Program-made: the position numbers and the translations under genes | IMG/VR virus record: IMGVR_UViG_3300032288_000941 | Location: 1 to 35,477 of that record | From: a virus | Reading direction: 5' to 3' (one strand) | DNA: 35,477 nucleotides | In this document: positions 8,727-35,477 of the stretch, in pieces | How positions within the stretch are numbered: the stretch's first letter is position 1 | How the letters are laid out: every line of letters begins with the position of its first letter | Notes under the pieces: model-generated | Database searches by the model: none | What the model saw: the letters and a program-made list of their open reading frames with translations, nothing else | Told to the model about the DNA's origin: nothing

Positions 8727-8755
8727 ATTATGAACTAGATTTATTTGTTGAACAA
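8727..8755 (-). promoter_or_regulatory. Candidate sigma70-type promoter for the late block
   Basis: Read on the minus strand, TTGTTC (8755-8750) is followed after 17 bases by CATAAT (8732-8727). The -10 box differs from consensus at one position, while the -35 box is weaker. The -35 overlaps that of the plus-strand promoter within the palindrome TTGTTGAACAA. Transcription would start near 8720 and run into the terminase, portal and fibre genes. Confidence 0.5.
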
Positions 8756-8776
8756 TAGGGTAATCCCTGATATACT
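8748..8776 (+). promoter_or_regulatory. Sigma70-type promoter of structured RNA A
   Basis: TTGAAC (8748-8753), 17-base spacer, TATACT (8771-8776). Both boxes are close to consensus and the spacing is ideal. The predicted start near 8782 coincides with the first base-paired residues of the structured RNA below, which supports the promoter. Host RNA polymerase is expected to use it, as no phage polymerase gene is seen. Confidence 0.75.
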
Positions 8777-9286: not shown

Positions 9287-9490
9287 ACCCAATAAAAGCA
9301 TCGGGTAGCCGTCTTGCGCCCAAATGAAACTTAAGTCCCACCCTTACTGATTACCTACTTTGCTATACACGTCCTTTGCTACCTGTATAGATTCCTTAGT
9401 TTTCTATACATTCCAATTTACCTTCTCGTGTGGGTAGGAGGCTCCCACAAATATTCCACAGCACGACTACCCCCTCCCCCCCATACAAAA
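9287..9490. other. Gene-free stretch left of the iterons
   Basis: No convincing reading frame on either strand. It contains a hairpin TGTGGG/CCCACA (9429-9434 with 9444-9449). CTATAC occurs at 9363 and 9404, with its inverted copy GTATAG at 9385-9390. A C-rich tract (9470-9482) lies just before the first iteron. It is probably part of the control/origin region. Confidence 0.5.
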
Positions 9491-9656
9491 GTAAGCACTA
9501 ACTAACATCGAAGTAAGCGCACACTAACTTATGCGGAGTAAGCACTAACTAACTACCATGTTAGTAGTCACTAACTAAGCAAGCAAGTAAGCACACACTA
9601 ACTTAGCAGGTTAGTAGACGCTAACTTGGTGGTAAGTGAGCACTCACTAACTTAGC
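9491..9656. repeat. Seven degenerate iterons, probable origin of replication
   Basis: Seven copies of a GTAAGCACTAACTAAC-type repeat begin at 9491, 9513, 9538, 9561, 9587, 9611 and 9632. Copies 1 and 3 are identical over 16 bases (9491-9506, 9538-9553). Spacing is about 18-27 bases, roughly two helical turns. The last copy holds a palindrome (AGTGAGCACTCACT). An eighth copy lies at 12998-13016. Such arrays bind an initiator at iteron origins. With the adjacent AT-rich stretch and no gene, an origin is the best reading; an operator array is the alternative. The repeats are too short and too evenly spaced for CRISPR. Confidence 0.65.
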
Positions 9657-9897
9657 ATATTAGGGTCATGCACCATAATGCACACACCTATAAACCCATG
9701 CACAATAGTTCACCACTACTAATCATAAGTAATAAAGTATTACAATAGTAATTGACTATCAATATAGGGAAACCGATAGGAATTATTGTAGATAACTTAG
9801 GGTTTGTCCTAGTTACTTTATTGTAGTGGTGACGTTATAGTAGTAGCACTAGGTTATTTAATCTAGTGTGTTTTTAACTAACTTAATAGGCTTTAAC
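9657..9897. other. AT-rich gene-free stretch, probable origin/leader of plus block 1
   Basis: Three ATGCAC boxes at 9668, 9678 and 9698 lie 10 and 20 bases apart, so on one face of the helix. A perfect palindrome GTAATAAAGTATTAC follows at 9729-9743. Next come a weak -35-like TTGACT (9752-9757), the element TCAATATAGGG (9759-9769) and TAGGGTTTGTCCTA (9798-9811), both of which recur at 16110-16130. A hairpin CACTAG/CTAGTG (9847-9852 with 9863-9868) is followed by a T-run just before the first gene. This probably combines DNA unwinding and promoter/leader functions. Confidence 0.5.
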
Positions 9898-10092
9898 ATG
9901 ACAACACTTAATCTCAAAATCTCAGAGTTATCAGAGTTATCAGTAATTTTAGGAAATAGAATTATTGAACTAGAAAATAGCAACACTAGGAATAGTGTAA
10001 TGATAGAGAACATTGTCACCCGTCAACTAACACAAGCAAAATTGATTCTGAGTAATGTAGAGCAGATTCTTTTTAATCATCACACAAGTTAA
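9898..10092 (+). CDS. Small early protein, 64 aa
   Basis: The chosen start at 9898 (MTTLNLKISELSELSVILGN) has AATAGGCTTTAAC just before it, matching the ribosome-site motif of the following genes. An upstream in-frame ATG at 9868 lacks one. The protein is rich in Leu, Ile, Asn and Ser with heptad-like spacing and is probably a helical dimer. It is the first gene of plus block 1, behind the origin-like region, so an early regulatory role is possible. No family recognised. Confidence 0.65.
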   Translation: MTTLNLKISELSELSVILGNRIIELENSNTRNSVMIENIVTRQLTQAKLILSNVEQILFNHHTS

Positions 10093-10168
10093 ATTCTAGG
10101 TTTTTAGCCCTTATCACTAGGGGCTAACGCCCTAGGTATTTTCCTAGGTTATCTTTTAATAGGTGTCA
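10093..10168 (+). promoter_or_regulatory. Intergenic double-hairpin element, copy 1
   Basis: The first hairpin pairs TTAGCCC (10104-10110) with GGGCTAA (10121-10127). The second pairs CCTAGG (10131-10136) with CCTAGG (10143-10148). A T-rich stretch and the initiation motif TTTTAATAGGTGTCACA follow, before the ATG at 10171. It shares layout with the copies at 10477, 11185 and 11897. Possible roles are a weak terminator/attenuator, a processing site or translational control. Confidence 0.65.
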
Positions 10169-10170
10169 CA

Positions 10171-10476
10171 ATGGATAAAACAACACAATCCCTAGAATCT
10201 CTTAATCGTGCTAAACAAGGGGATTCCTTACTTAACTATCAAACTATCCTTAGTGGTTTTGCATCCAAGGGTATCGCACACAATGACATTATCCCTAGGG
10301 AAAACGTGTTTACCTATAAAGCATGGTTAGCCTTAGGGCGTCAAGTTAGAAAAGGGGAAACGGGTGTTAAATGCGTTACTTGGATAGATACAGAATCCAA
10401 GGAAACGGGTAAACCTAGCAAGTTAGTGCGTAGCGTATCGGTTTTTCACGTTTCACAAACTGATTCTATACAGTAA
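10171..10476 (+). CDS. ArdC N-terminal-domain-like protein
   Basis: A 101-residue protein. Residues about 40-75 (VFTYKAWLALGRQVRKGETG, then VKCVTWI) match the signature of the ArdC N-terminal domain, a single-stranded DNA-binding module found in plasmid antirestriction and TraC primase-type proteins. The ArdC C-terminal metalloprotease-like domain is absent, so this is a stand-alone domain. It may protect or coat incoming DNA, or act in replication. It is flanked on both sides by the recurring double-hairpin elements. Confidence 0.75.
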   Translation: MDKTTQSLESLNRAKQGDSLLNYQTILSGFASKGIAHNDIIPRENVFTYKAWLALGRQVRKGETGVKCVTWIDTESKETGKPSKLVRSVSVFHVSQTDSIQ

Positions 10477-10568
10477 AGCATAGACTGTAAGCCCTTGGTT
10501 AACTCTAGGGGCTTATGGCCTAGGTTTCACAATCTAGGGTTTTAATCAATCTTTTTTTAATAGGTGTT
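10477..10568 (+). promoter_or_regulatory. Intergenic double-hairpin element, copy 2
   Basis: TAAGCCC (10488-10494) pairs with GGGCTTA (10509-10515). CCTAG (10519-10523) pairs with CTAGG (10534-10538). Two T-runs and AATAGGTGTTAC lead to the ATG at 10571. Relative to copy 1 the first stem has the bases TA and AT swapped on both arms, so pairing is kept. Confidence 0.65.
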
Positions 10569-10570
10569 AC

Positions 10571-10816
10571 ATGACTAATCAACAAATTAAAGCATTGCAA
10601 AGCATAGGTAAGGGAATCATAGAATCGGCTAATCTTAGCCCTACTGGTGCACCAAGTGGCATTATTTATAGTGCACTAATGGGGCATGGTGCTAGTCTTA
10701 ACCAGTTCAATTCAATTATGGATACTCTGGTTAAACACGGGTTTTTAACGCATGACTATGATTGTCATGTTTACCATGCTACACCTAGTGGCCTTGCATG
10801 GGCTAACAAGGTATAA
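10571..10816 (+). CDS. Winged-helix-like small protein
   Basis: An 81-residue protein. The pattern GAPSGIIYSALMGHGASLNQ, then FNSIMDTLVKHGFLT and a beta-like segment ending in Thr-Pro-x-Gly, resembles a small winged helix (helix-turn-helix followed by a hairpin wing). Such proteins usually bind DNA. It belongs to the early block and is preceded by a double-hairpin element and the AATAGGTGTTAC initiation motif. It is a candidate regulator of early or middle genes, but the fold is inferred by eye and no family is named. Confidence 0.6.
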   Translation: MTNQQIKALQSIGKGIIESANLSPTGAPSGIIYSALMGHGASLNQFNSIMDTLVKHGFLTHDYDCHVYHATPSGLAWANKV

Positions 10817-10894
10817 CAAGGGTTTATCCCTATTGTTTAGGGGCTAACAATCCCTAAACTATCAATCTCAATCAACTAACTAAATAGGTGTTAA
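10817..10894 (+). promoter_or_regulatory. Intergenic hairpin element, divergent copy 3
   Basis: TTTAGGG (10836-10842) pairs perfectly with CCCTAAA (10852-10858). The surrounding sequence keeps GGGGCTAAC and the AATAGGTGTTAACA motif before the ATG at 10897, but the usual first stem is degraded and no T-run follows. It is a variant member of the family. Confidence 0.5.
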
Positions 10895-10896
10895 CA

Positions 10897-11076
10897 ATGA
10901 AAATTACTGAACAAAAAAACGGGAATTACACTACATTCGAGCGCATTGCATACAATGGTTACTACATAGTCAAACTGTATAAAAACGGGCAACTATGCGA
11001 CAAAATAATGGCCGATACTTACTCTGGTGCAAGGGATTACCTAAAATCATTTAATCTATTGGCTAAAAACTCTTAA
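10897..11076 (+). CDS. Small hypothetical early protein, 59 aa
   Basis: The start at 10897 (MKITEQKNGNYTTFERIAYN) is favoured over an in-frame codon at 10888 because it sits right after AATAGGTGTTAACA. The sequence alternates charged and aromatic residues and looks like a small beta-sheet protein followed by a helix (SGARDYLKSFNLLAKNS). No family recognised. The next gene follows after 12 bases without a hairpin element. Confidence 0.65.
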   Translation: MKITEQKNGNYTTFERIAYNGYYIVKLYKNGQLCDKIMADTYSGARDYLKSFNLLAKNS

Positions 11077-11088
11077 TAGGTGTTAATT

Positions 11089-11184
11089 ATGCGTCAATTC
11101 TTATATGAAACCCTTTGTGGCCTTGTTTTTTGTATAGCATGGGTTACCCTACTGCTTGCATACTTTGATTGTTTAACATTCTAA
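11089..11184 (+). CDS. Single-pass membrane micropeptide, 31 aa
   Basis: A 31-codon frame, starting MRQFLYETLCGLVFCIAWVT, with one clear hydrophobic helix (residues 9-26) and a short polar end. The AATAGGTGTTAATT motif immediately before ATG is the same initiation signal as in the neighbours. The gene lies between two accepted genes in the same direction. It probably inserts in the inner membrane. Its function is unknown; phage micropeptides of this type often affect host envelope or transport proteins. Confidence 0.6.
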   Translation: MRQFLYETLCGLVFCIAWVTLLLAYFDCLTF

Positions 11185-11258
11185 TTTTTAGACTGCTAAC
11201 CCTTTTAACTAGGGGTTAGTGGCCTAGGAATTTCCCTAGGGTTTTTTAATAGGTGTCA
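11185..11258 (+). promoter_or_regulatory. Intergenic double-hairpin element, copy 4
   Basis: CTAACCC (11196-11202) pairs with GGGTTAG (11213-11219). CCTAGG (11223-11228) pairs with CCTAGG (11235-11240), followed by six T and AATAGGTGTCAAT before the ATG at 11261. The first stem differs from copies 1 and 2 on both arms (AGCCC/GGGCT replaced by AACCC/GGGTT). Confidence 0.7.
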
Positions 11259-11260
11259 AT

Positions 11261-11896
11261 ATGAAATTTTCAGTTATGCGTAAAGAGTTAAAAGCCCTTA
11301 ATCGTTTTAGTTCTACTAAGGATATGCGTTATTACTTATGCGGTATCCATGTAGTGCAAAATAATCGGGGCACTTATCTAGAATCTACAAACGGGCATAT
11401 GCTAGGGCGTTTGTTGATAGATGACGCACCAAGGGAAAAATCTAGCGTTATTATCGGTAATGACGCACTAAAAGCCCTTATTGGAACTGCTAAAAATGCC
11501 AATGAAATATTGCATTTCACTATTGACGGCGTAAAAATTCACGTTATAACGCCTACTGGTGAGCAAACATTCCAAGCATTAGACGGGAATTTTCCCGATT
11601 GCGATAGAGTGTTGCCCTTAGTCTTAAAAGATGATGATATTGCGCCCGCTTGCTATAACCCTGAATACGTATTGGCATTTCACCAAGCGGCGCAAGATAT
11701 AAAAGAGAGCAAAAAAGGCGCAACGCCTACTGTATCCATTTTGCAACGGGGCAACAATAGTGGCCTGGTTAATATCGGGGTTGATAACTTTATCGGCGTT
11801 ATTATGCCCATGCGTGACGGCGGCGGCGTATCAATTCCACAATGGTGTTTTAAACCTACTGTTAAGCCCGTAGAGACTGAGACGGCAACGGCTTAA
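11261..11896 (+). CDS. Shortened DnaN-like sliding clamp protein
   Basis: A 211-residue homologue of the bacterial DNA polymerase III beta subunit. Residues 21-30 (DMRYYLCGI) and STNGHMLGRL match the DVRYYLNG and TDGHRLA boxes of clamp domain II. LDGNFPDCDRVLP matches the end of domain II. YNPEYVLAFHQAA and FIGVIMPMRD match the C-terminal half of domain III (VSYVLDVLNAL, YVVMPMRL). Domain I and roughly the first half of domain III are missing; DnaN is normally about 366 residues. It may form a different ring, or compete with the host clamp for its partners. No phage polymerase is present to use it. Confidence 0.8.
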   Translation: MKFSVMRKELKALNRFSSTKDMRYYLCGIHVVQNNRGTYLESTNGHMLGRLLIDDAPREKSSVIIGNDALKALIGTAKNANEILHFTIDGVKIHVITPTGEQTFQALDGNFPDCDRVLPLVLKDDDIAPACYNPEYVLAFHQAAQDIKESKKGATPTVSILQRGNNSGLVNIGVDNFIGVIMPMRDGGGVSIPQWCFKPTVKPVETETATA

Positions 11897-11988
11897 TCCC
11901 TGAGACTGTAAACCCTTAGAAATAGGGGTTTATGGCCTATGCCTTAGTTCTAGGGCATGGGGTTTTTTAATCTTTTTAATGGGTGTAA
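11897..11988 (+). promoter_or_regulatory. Intergenic double-hairpin element, copy 5
   Basis: TAAACCC (11909-11915) pairs with GGGTTTA (11926-11932). ATGCC (11939-11943) pairs with GGCAT (11954-11958). T-runs and AATGGGTGTAAAT lead to the ATG at 11991. Both stems differ in sequence from the other copies yet keep pairing, which argues for a selected RNA structure. Confidence 0.7.
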
Positions 11989-11990
11989 AT

Positions 11991-12269
11991 ATGATAAAAG
12001 AAAACGACTTCACACGGGTAAAAAATGACATCAACGGGAATCCCCGTCATGTATGCCATTTTCTAAACCTAAATTGTCCTAAAGAGTTAAACGCTAACCC
12101 TTGGATTGACGTTAGTCAAAAATATAACTTAGCACTTGCAAGGGCTAAAACTCTTGGTGGCCGTAAATTCCACAACAAACAATATGGCGGCGGTATTGTT
12201 TTCCAATGCTATAACTTGCGGGACTTGTGCGAAAGAATCAACGAATTGACTGAGGGAGTTACAGCATGA
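11991..12269 (+). CDS. Small early protein, 92 aa
   Basis: The start at 11991 (MIKENDFTRVKNDINGNPRH) is chosen because the earlier in-frame ATG at 11979 lies inside the initiation motif. The protein is basic with Arg, Lys, Asn and Tyr and two Cys in the first half (VCHFLNLNC). It looks like a mixed alpha/beta domain ending in a helix (NLRDLCERINELTEGV). The stop overlaps the next start (ATGA), so the two genes are coupled. I do not recognise a family, though DNA or RNA contact is plausible from charge. Confidence 0.65.
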   Translation: MIKENDFTRVKNDINGNPRHVCHFLNLNCPKELNANPWIDVSQKYNLALARAKTLGGRKFHNKQYGGGIVFQCYNLRDLCERINELTEGVTA

Positions 12270-12819: not shown

Positions 12820-12996
12820 ATGGAAATAAATGAACACTATGCGGATAACTTAGCAAACCTCACGGAAGACGAATTGTGGCAAGTTTCCCGATACATTGCC
12901 GACCATGTGACCTATGAGATTAAAAGCGGAAAAACGCCCGATAAACATACAATTTTCTGGGCATTAGATGCAATTCTTGGAGGAGCACTAGAATAA
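12820..12996 (+). CDS. Small acidic protein, 58 aa
   Basis: Start MEINEHYADNLANLTEDELW at 12820, with GAGG six bases upstream inside the end of the previous gene. An in-frame GTG at 12808 would overlap that gene and lacks such a site. The protein is mostly helical and acidic. It is the last gene of plus block 1 and is followed by an iteron copy and a terminator. Function unknown. Confidence 0.6.
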   Translation: MEINEHYADNLANLTEDELWQVSRYIADHVTYEIKSGKTPDKHTIFWALDAILGGALE

Positions 12997-12997
12997 G

Positions 12998-13016
12998 TTA
13001 GTAAGCACTCACTTAC
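12998..13016. repeat. Isolated extra copy of the iteron
   Basis: TTAGTAAGCACTCACTTAC matches the repeats at 9491-9656 and is itself an inverted repeat (GTAAG/CTTAC arms). It lies directly against the terminator at the end of plus block 1, about 3.3 kb from the array. It may be a distant initiator-binding site that allows DNA looping, or a leftover copy. Confidence 0.6.
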
Positions 13017-13017
13017 C

Positions 13018-13037
13018 ACCGCCTTCGGGCGGTTTTT
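13018..13037 (+). terminator. Intrinsic terminator of plus block 1
   Basis: ACCGCC (13018-13023), loop TTCG, GGCGGT (13028-13033), then a T-run to 13037. This is a GC-rich six-pair stem with a stable TTCG loop. It ends the plus-strand transcript between the converging plus and minus blocks. The stretch 13038-13136 beyond it shows no gene. Confidence 0.9.
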
Positions 13038-31549: not shown

Positions 31550-31860
31550 CTGCTTGCCTTTGCCTTATTCCTTGCGGAAATTGACTTGGCTTTTGCCTTT
31601 GCATCTGCCTTGGAAGAAGCACCCCAAGCCTTTAGCGAAAGAAGCAGTCTAGTTGGTTCACCATCCTTGTACTCCGCACCAGCCATATTGCCCATGCGAG
31701 CCAAGAAACTTGCTCTGCGAGGATTATCCCCCGACTTTACTGGTGCTTTTAGATTGCCACCAGTTTCTGCATTATAAGATGCTCTTCCCTTGGCATTCAA
31801 CCCCCCAGATTTAGATTTTCCTTCATTCCTAGCCCATGCTGGACTTTTGAACTTTTGCAT
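31546..31860 (-). CDS. Small basic virion protein, altered N-terminus
   Basis: A 104-residue, strongly basic protein (MQKFKSPAWARNEGKSKSGG...). The SPAWARNEGKSKSGGLNAKG segment is the signature of a small DNA-binding-like protein found between the coat and adaptor genes of many short-tailed phages. The start lies inside the end of the HNH gene. A remnant with a related N-terminus (MKTPAWQRSEGKN) sits on the other side of that HNH gene at 32596-32634, so this copy appears to have been split off or replaced by the mobile gene. Confidence 0.75.
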   Translation of the reverse strand: MQKFKSPAWARNEGKSKSGGLNAKGRASYNAETGGNLKAPVKSGDNPRRASFLARMGNMAGAEYKDGEPTRLLLSLKAWGASSKADAKAKAKSISARNKAKASR

Positions 31861-32572
31861 GATGATTCTCCATTATCGCTAAACACCATTGATAAAGTTG
31901 CTCGATGGAAAGGTCTGACTTCATGCGGTTTACAACATCACAAACAAATTGTACATTTCCTTGCACATATCCCAAAGAACTATCTATCCTGTCAATACTA
32001 ATGTTTGTTAAAACCCTTCCAACGCCAGCAATATATGTCATATCAACTCCAGAAATAGCGCATTTCCCTTCTTGTTTTTTATATAACTCAAGTAAGTAAA
32101 AAATATCAATGTTAAAACCAAGGTGCTGTTTTCTTTTTGTTGCATGATACAAAATTGATGAAATAAAGTTTTTTGGGCTAAATGATCTTTGTTCGCATTT
32201 TGCTAAATAACTTATTGGATGCTTTTGTTTTGATAAGTCCAAAACACAATTTTTGCACTTTGTTCTATATTTCTTTGTTCCATCACTAAAACATCCATTT
32301 GAATAGAATTCTGACAAAGGTTTATCTATTTTGCATGATGAACAAGTTTGCTCACCAAGCAACAATATTGCGGAATGAACTGGTCTTGCCCTATTCTTTC
32401 TTTCTTTAACCCTACGACATTGTTTGCAATATGGTCTATACCTTGTAGCACCATCTTTGCGAACTCCATGAACATAAAAATCAAAAAGAGGTTTATTATT
32501 TTTACATTTTGGACAAAACGCAAAAGACAAGTCATCTTTACCGCGAATAATAAAAGCATTAAATTTTTCCAT
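31829..32572 (-). CDS. HNH homing endonuclease with zinc ribbons
   Basis: A 247-residue enzyme. Two Cys4 zinc ribbons (CPKCKNNKPLFDFY...CKQC and CSSCKIDKPLSEFY...CKNC) are followed by a linker and an HNH core (CAISGVDMTYIAG, SIDRIDSSLGYVQGNVQFVC, then VVNRMKSDLS). It interrupts the row of small basic genes. Base composition is more AT-rich than its neighbours, as for a recently acquired free-standing homing gene. Its last codons run into the start of the basic protein gene at 31860. Confidence 0.88.
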   Translation of the reverse strand: MEKFNAFIIRGKDDLSFAFCPKCKNNKPLFDFYVHGVRKDGATRYRPYCKQCRRVKERKNRARPVHSAILLLGEQTCSSCKIDKPLSEFYSNGCFSDGTKKYRTKCKNCVLDLSKQKHPISYLAKCEQRSFSPKNFISSILYHATKRKQHLGFNIDIFYLLELYKKQEGKCAISGVDMTYIAGVGRVLTNISIDRIDSSLGYVQGNVQFVCDVVNRMKSDLSIEQLYQWCLAIMENHHAKVQKSSMG

Positions 32573-34946: not shown

Positions 34947-35477
34947 TTACTTAACCCTTCCCTCTGCGTAGGCTTGCATGATCTCTTCAGACAAGGCTTC
35001 GTATCGGTTCGGGTCTGTCATCTTCAGCCGAATAAGGTCAGCCCTTCTATAAACTCTCTTAGAACTCTCTCCAGTACCACCTACATCAACTGCGGCGGCT
35101 TTAAGGTTAGTCTTGCGTTGGGTTTCACCCGCATCGCTAGTCTGTTTAGCCTTAACACCCTTTAGTTGCTTGTAAGTCGATAACAACTCGTTTGCACTGT
35201 CATAGTCAAACTCACCATCAGCCTTTGCATACAACCCTAGCCGAACAGGTGAGGATTTCACCCAGTTCTGAAAGTCCGTATCTTGTGCAATCTGCCCAAA
35301 ATCAGGATGTTCTTGCGCTAACTTCTGCTGAATTTGCATCTTTTTGAAGTCTAGAGCCGCTTGGCGACCCGCTACTACATCAGGATGACTATCAACTGTC
35401 TTACGAATTGCCTCTTTCGGATTCTCAAAGAAATCTACTTCAGGCTCACTTTGCTCAATAGGTTGTTTGTTAGAACT
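34947..35477 (-). CDS. Scaffold-like capsid assembly protein, C-terminal part
   Basis: The rest of the gene begun at 351. The frame is open through the right repeat copy and continues MQIQQKLAQEHPDFGQIAQD to a stop at 34947. The middle contains a Lys/Ser/Thr-rich region (KGVKAKQTSDAGETQRKTNL), and the end is a helical, basic-acidic stretch (RLKMTDPNRYEALSEEIMQA). Scaffold proteins commonly end in a basic helix that contacts the coat protein, which is encoded 29 bases downstream. In this linear window the 5' end is missing. Confidence 0.75.
   Translation of the reverse strand, partial: SSNKQPIEQSEPEVDFFENPKEAIRKTVDSHPDVVAGRQAALDFKKMQIQQKLAQEHPDFGQIAQDTDFQNWVKSSPVRLGLYAKADGEFDYDSANELLSTYKQLKGVKAKQTSDAGETQRKTNLKAAAVDVGGTGESSKRVYRRADLIRLKMTDPNRYEALSEEIMQAYAEGRVK
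35355..35477. repeat. Right copy of 123-bp terminal direct repeat
   Basis: Exact duplicate of bases 1-123. When one copy is removed the scaffold-like reading frame is continuous and all minus-strand late genes become one block, so the molecule is best treated as circular or circularly permuted, of 35354 bp. Confidence 0.95.

Follow-up and report, generated by a model that had tools for sequence, protein, structure and literature searches.

The window analysed here is an IMG/VR record of 35,477 bases. The ORFs at 1-351 and 34947-35477 overlap and carry the same peptide stretch at both ends of the record, and this shared coding sequence makes it probable that the genome was assembled as a circle with a terminal overlap. 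A protein family scan gave matches for portal, terminase, major head protein, Erf and exonuclease, which are those of a tailed virus. A megablast comparison of the window with the 50,697 phage records of INPHARED gave no match, and its major head protein shares only about 30% identity with those of isolates, freshwater cyanopodoviruses included. An endonuclease VII/HNH-like gene on the minus strand (31829-32572) lies within the structural cluster and is perhaps a homing-type insertion.

The region described below is a group of small genes on the plus strand. The gene at 10171-10476 encodes an ArdC N-terminal-domain-like protein (PF08401, 4.9e-7) and is followed by a gene for a protein of 81 aa without a family match (10571-10816). 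A DNA polymerase III beta-clamp-like protein is encoded at 11261-11896, with matches to PF02767 (1.1e-5, just under the cutoff), phrog_947 (1.2e-12) and phrog_3007 (1.4e-25). In PHROGs this family bears the name RusA-like resolvase, a doubtful label given that Pfam and a second PHROG indicate a DNA polymerase III beta clamp. The gene at 11991-12269 encodes a TreK-like protein (PF24229, 1.6e-20), of the family of a Staphylococcus phage terminal-repeat-encoded protein. Ribosome-binding sites were read from the sequence as AATAGGTGT at 10158-10166, 10559-10567 and 11248-11256, before the ATG codons at 10171, 10571 and 11261, and as AATGGGTGT at 11978-11986, before the ATG at 11991.

Four gaps between genes in this region contain an element of two adjacent hairpins, H1 and H2, on the plus strand and directly after a TAA stop codon. 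The bases between the stop codon and H1 include a short stretch referred to as segment 1. Copy A (10093-10157; covariance-model E 1.7e-14, z -3.5) follows the stop codon at 10090-10092 with a flank at 10093-10103 containing CTAGG (segment 1), H1 TTAGCCC/GGGCTAA at 10104-10127 and H2 CCTAGG..CCTAGG at 10131-10148. Copy B (10477-10546; E 2.5e-17, z -4.1) lies between the ArdC-like gene and that of the 81-aa protein. Its stop codon (10474-10476) is followed by the flank AGCATAGA, with TAGA as segment 1, by H1 TAAGCCC/GGGCTTA at 10485-10518, which is lengthened by CTG/TGG to 10 pairs, and by H2 CCTAGGTT/AATCTAGG at 10519-10538 and GTTTT. Copy C (11185-11247; E 8.9e-26, z -3.6) precedes the clamp-like gene and follows the stop codon (11182-11184) of a 31-codon ORF; its parts are the flank TTTTTAGA, H1 CTAACCC/GGGTTAG at 11193-11222, H2 CCTAGG/CCTAGG at 11223-11240 and GTTTTTT. 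Copy D (11897-11970; E 1.2e-14, z -4.0) separates the clamp-like gene (stop codon 11894-11896) from the TreK-like gene. It has the flank TCCCTGAGA, whose segment 1 fits poorly, H1 TAAACCC/GGGTTTA at 11906-11935, H2 CCTATGCC..GGCATGGG at 11936-11961 and GTTTTTT.

A preliminary description of this DNA had reported these four copies and quoted the arms of H1, and both were found as given. One covariance model matches all four (E 1.7e-14 to 8.9e-26), and their two-hairpin fold is beyond chance (MFE z -3.5 to -4.1). The description of the second stem as CCTAGG-type holds for copies A and C, and copies B and D have other H2 arms. A T-run was likewise present after H2 in copies B, C and D, and is poor in copy A at 10149 (GTTATCTTTT). 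The gap at 10817, described as a fifth, divergent copy, gave no match to the model, although it too folds into a pair of hairpins, different from those of the element. This double hairpin of a different sequence class (10817-10882, plus strand; z -3.9) begins right after the stop codon TAA at 10814-10816 and consists of a small hairpin at 10819-10831 and a GTTTAGGGG/TCCCTAAAC hairpin at 10835-10859, without segment 1 and without a U tract. Nor does the element stand before each gene, as had been suggested: the gaps ahead of the genes at 11089 and 12266 are without it.

Several other features lie near the operon. A promoter-like TTGAAC-17-TATACT is present at 8748-8776 on the plus strand, and directly 3' of it a strongly folded stretch of 94 nt (to 8873; z -5.8) ends in TTTTTTT; this folded region is a candidate small RNA or leader. 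Across the element region sigma-70 promoters are not in excess (23 found, 31 expected). Repeats of the GTAAGCACTAACTAAC type lie ahead of the early operon at 9489-9663, and an inverted copy follows it closely at 12994-13020 (27 nt, 89%); they are possible iterons or binding sites, and repeats resembling this type are also visible in locus L012. The operon's first gene is preceded by a single terminator-like hairpin, GCACTAGG..TCTAGTGT followed by GTTTTT (9846-9869, plus strand), which has no H1-type partner.

Homologous copies and covariation

Relatives were collected by a search with the clamp-like protein, which gave 11, and by DNA pattern scans of viral contigs, which gave 91 and at least 119 contig stretches. 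In the second DNA pattern three of the four variable stem positions were free on both arms, and the fourth was restricted only to purine versus pyrimidine. A local frame test demanded no pairing; a filter of at least 5 of 7 pairs was added later, and the cases that it excluded were unrelated background. A total of 168 distinct copies of the element was read from the contigs found by pattern scans. The small early genes are extensively shuffled between contigs L002-L237, in gaps with and without the element alike.

At least 10 different H1 stems were found with both arms paired, including TAAACCC, ATAACCC, CTAACCC, TAAGCCC, CAAACCC and TTAGCCC, and further TTGACCC, ATAGCCC and CAAGCCC. Position 1 is U-A, C-G or A-U, position 2 is A-U or U-A, and positions 3-4 are A-U or G-C with G.U. 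Both arms of H2 change as well (CCTAG/CTAGG, CCTTGG/CCAAGG, CCTGC/GCAGG and CCTGGG/TCCAGG). In a model-fitted alignment of 106 distinct rows, 99.3% of the paired cells hold standard pairs and double changes occur at 11 of 16 pairs. The covariation score is 0.329, compared with 0.109 for shuffled alignments, of which 0/500 reach it, and with at most 0.04 for slid partners. Because this alignment leans toward its own structure and its rows are related, a gapless alignment of 24 rows also matters; it is 97.9% paired and scores 0.262 versus 0.089. A selected RNA structure with compensatory changes, as the preliminary description had proposed, is thus strongly supported by homologous viral contigs, the test which that description had itself named.

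At H1 positions 3-4, G.U was observed 13 times and A.C twice. Since G.U is kept and A.C is rare, the sense RNA strand is the structured one; model scores on the opposite strand are about 12-23 bits, compared with up to 84 bits on the sense strand. At its base H1 hardly varies (C-G, U.G, G.U), with U.G in 106/106 and G.U in 104/106 rows, and the neighboring pairs vary freely. Where the C-G is replaced (AUG...UGU) it becomes A-U.

The fold is also kept where the sequence is not. In distant relatives the gap before the clamp gene contains two hairpins of unrelated sequences, for example CGGGTAAGCTC...GGGCTTATTCG with GATGCA/TGCATC, or TTAGGGTATTG...CAGTACCCTAA with CCTAGG/CCTAGG. Tandem hairpins were present in 181/511 gaps of 50-110 nt and in 4/511 shuffled ones, a figure that is no estimate of prevalence because the loci had been chosen for carrying the element.

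The two-hairpin RNA element, which had no name before, is real and occurs in gaps of the early gene region in a large group of uncultivated viruses that infect microbes. A pattern search of genome contigs for a host copy gave one match (L104), with a mispaired stem and 13 bits, which was judged to be chance, and blastn of two element sequences against INPHARED gave chance-level matches only.

Register with the upstream stop codon and alternative pairing

The preliminary description had viewed the element as lying ahead of the downstream start codon. The register is instead that of the upstream stop codon. An ORF of at least 20 codons ends 5-10 nt before the element in 161 of the 164 copies with enough upstream sequence, at a distance of 8 nt in 91, 9 nt in 29, 7 nt in 19 and 5 nt in 21 copies; among random positions such a stop lies at 7-9 nt in 126/5000 (2.5%). 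The stop codon is TAA in 152/166 cases, and the upstream proteins belong to 26 families. The distance to the next ATG is loose, mostly 34-65 nt, the few exceptions being GTG starts or unresolved ends. With fixed spacing to the stop and loose spacing to the start, the element is tied to the upstream gene's end, although common descent of a TAA-containing unit could also explain the fixed spacing. The elements are intercistronic, number 1-5 per genome and are clustered on one strand. They are not found at operon ends, and the copies, each preceding a start codon at the distance given, do not mark the ends of transcription units.

Pairing is possible between segment 1 and segment 2, the 5' strand of H2, whose partner within H2 is segment 3. 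Within the main family three bases change together: the one in segment 1, the one at H2 position 4 and the H2 partner of the latter read (U,A,U) in 111, (C,G,C) in 19 and (A,U,A) in 14 copies, with (G,A,U) in 10 copies as exceptions. In copy D and its lineage the pairing of segment 1 is broken (GAGA with CCUA). This three-way association is partly a matter of shared ancestry, since spacer and H2 can travel together. Other classes have their own complementary segments (CATT.CA with TG.AATG, CTAGG with CCTAG, TTCAG with CTGAA), which are set off from H1 by a mismatch. Across 21 dissimilar copies, pairing of the flank with the H2 5' strand of the same copy has an energy of -5.9 kcal/mol, compared with -3.5 kcal/mol for foreign strands (permutation test, p = 5e-5 for energy, 0/20000; p = 0.007 for pairs). 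In several of these 21 copies the flank forms no pairs, or does not exceed the number formed with foreign strands. Mutually exclusive pairings of the kind expected of an attenuator are therefore conserved in relatives, with exceptions that include copy D of the window.

In the main family H1 plus H2 is on average 6.4 kcal/mol more stable than the extended H1; the alternative would thus be only transient and would act during RNA synthesis. For several other classes the energy minimum is the extended form. Another pairing considered for attenuation, that of the 3' side of H1 (TAGGGG) with CCTA, was rejected, as H2 stems that begin with CCTTGG or CCTGC break it and H1 keeps its TAG.

Behind H2 the family has a G and then TTT, with T at about 90% at +2 to +4. 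The frequency falls to 58-60% at +5 and 27-33% at +6, and several copies have almost no T. In the unrelated classes T reaches 43/77/86% at +2 to +4, compared with 36% in gaps. This short U tract fits a pause site or a weak terminator and not a strong one.

Possible function and alternatives

The element is probably a cis-acting RNA of viral early mRNA that sets the level to which the next gene is expressed. The preferred reading, to which we assign a probability of roughly 0.4, is that of a two-state RNA between cistrons, set by the ribosome and working as a weak attenuator. The layout is the stop codon of gene N, about 8 nt with segment 1, H1, H2, the short U tract, a ribosome-binding site and gene N+1. 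Two partners are available to segment 2: pairing with segment 1 lengthens H1 beyond one conserved mismatch, and pairing with segment 3 gives H2. When a stop codon is in its A site, a ribosome covers about 9 nt downstream. This is the place of segment 1, which a ribosome terminating on gene N would thus hide. With segment 1 masked, H1 would stay intact and segment 2 would be free for H2; H2 and the short U tract would then cause RNA polymerase to pause or partly terminate before gene N+1. If no ribosome were terminating, the extended H1 would form first, H2 would be delayed and transcription would read through. Masking by the ribosome, the sign of the effect and an output by transcription attenuation are the steps that we infer.

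The main rival, possible if somewhat doubtful, is punctuation of the mRNA. H1 would close off the upstream cistron at its 3' end, and H2 would do so for the downstream cistron at its 5' end. The hairpins could act as barriers to exonucleases or as substrates of RNase III or another nuclease, like the intercistronic processing sites of T7 or the REP/BIME stabilizers; attenuation is then not needed. Two hairpins of unrelated sequences kept in the same gap suit such a purely structural role, and the weak distal U tract and the registration of H1 to the end of the upstream ORF are consistent with it. The helix of the extended H1 is irregular, containing a mismatch and tandem U.G/G.U, and broadly resembles processing sites, but the H1 core of about 10-13 bp is short for RNase III. 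Punctuation also leaves unexplained the complementarity of the flank to the H2 5' strand and the TTT kept right after H2. Recognition of an invariant AGACUG...UGGCCU core with tandem wobble pairs on nascent RNA by a protein of the virus or the host or by RNA polymerase itself, as in antitermination by HK022 put, would account for the invariant U.G (106/106) and G.U (104/106) at the H1 base amid freely changing neighbors, and putRNA likewise has two adjacent stem-loops (PMC9378689). It is nevertheless unlikely: the unrelated classes in the same gaps are without this core, up to five copies occur in neighboring gaps where early operons have one put each, and protein family scans of the genome found no candidate RNA-binding protein.

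Shared sequence might instead serve as a joint at which small early genes are swapped as cassettes, with structure secondary. At element gaps one and the same upstream gene does stand before a variety of downstream genes, and one downstream gene behind a variety of upstream genes, and the same-downstream fraction is 24% across element gaps versus 37% across others. As a main role this was rejected, because shuffling is almost as strong at other gaps (long gaps without the element have 47% same-downstream), and homology alone gives no reason for compensatory pairs or for hairpins of unrelated sequence; the joint is accordingly quite improbable. Palindromes acting as DNA, for instance as operators, are a far more remote reading, as is chance. 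H1 and H2 are inverted repeats in the DNA too, and the ESAS inverted repeats of mycobacteriophages have been read as DNA-binding sites (PMC3203893), but here both arms change together, G.U is kept with A.C rare, and the opposite strand gains about 12-23 bits where the sense strand gains up to 84. Chance is already refuted by the shuffles, which never reach the observed covariation. Integron attC sites were rejected on inspection since the core sites do not fit. N4-type hairpin promoters were set aside, with no ORF above 700 aa and no RNA polymerase match among the scanned proteins.

Known systems and significance

Attenuators of the trp/ampC type, which are controlled by the ribosome, consist of a leader with a regulatory peptide and of three segments with exclusive pairings, the first being masked by the ribosome. 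The attenuator reading shares the three segments, the mutually exclusive pairings and the proposed masking of the first. It differs in that the element is repeated in gaps inside an operon and has no leader with a regulatory peptide; the ribosome would be sensed as it terminates on an ordinary gene, and the 2:3 hairpin would be favored by masking, not prevented. The RNase III sites of T7 are hairpins between early cistrons, and bacterial REP/BIME are repeated intergenic structures. The element resembles them in both respects and is distinguished by its short H1 core, strict spacing to the stop codon, abutting second hairpin and alternative pairing.

No family of Rfam 15 was matched at the gathering threshold, and the best lax matches were far below it. 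The open-access literature that was searched holds no described element with the same layout. The view of the preliminary description that no such element is described thus agrees with both searches and needs qualification for ESAS, which has a similar layout without RNA pairing (PMC3203893). SAS and ESAS are repeats in one orientation, several per genome, just upstream of a subset of small non-structural gene starts, with an inverted repeat and then a Shine-Dalgarno-like sequence, and in this the present element is like them (PMC3203893). For the ESAS of Cluster K mycobacteriophages the authors found little support for mRNA hairpins (PMC3203893). Unlike ESAS, which is reported to adjoin the start codon with arms that do not support pairing as RNA, the element has covarying arms, two hairpins and the register of the upstream stop. 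The 13-bp GGGATAGGAGCCC of SAS adjoins the start codon, whereas the start-proximal sequence here is AATAGGTGT.

The put RNA of HK022 also has two adjacent stem-loops in an early phage mRNA and acts in cis on transcription (PMC9378689). It is present in one copy per early promoter, measures about 70 nt, contains bulges and a triplex, and has its effect at distant terminators (PMC9378689); it binds the zinc-binding domain of RNAP beta'. Unlike put, the element occurs in 1-5 copies between genes (four in the window), with simple uninterrupted stems and a U tract after them. ESAS and HK022 put are the nearest layouts; the element is filed under no known family and would work most like an attenuator.

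The element represents an unannotated structured RNA family with very strong covariation in more than 100 uncultivated viral contigs, absent from Rfam and from the isolate-phage records searched. It is a marker RNA for a large viral group without isolates. Tentatively, and with more doubt than for the weak attenuator itself, it may be a widespread, undescribed viral RNA switch in which the ribosome that terminates on a gene acts through the segment near the stop codon to determine how the two hairpins between the cistrons fold, and thereby how the following gene is expressed, the sequence having been replaced many times and the fold kept. If the switch reading is true, ribosome position at ordinary stop codons would be used repeatedly within a genome to balance neighboring genes, and this would provide a testable model of expression control for compact viral operons without a phage RNA polymerase.
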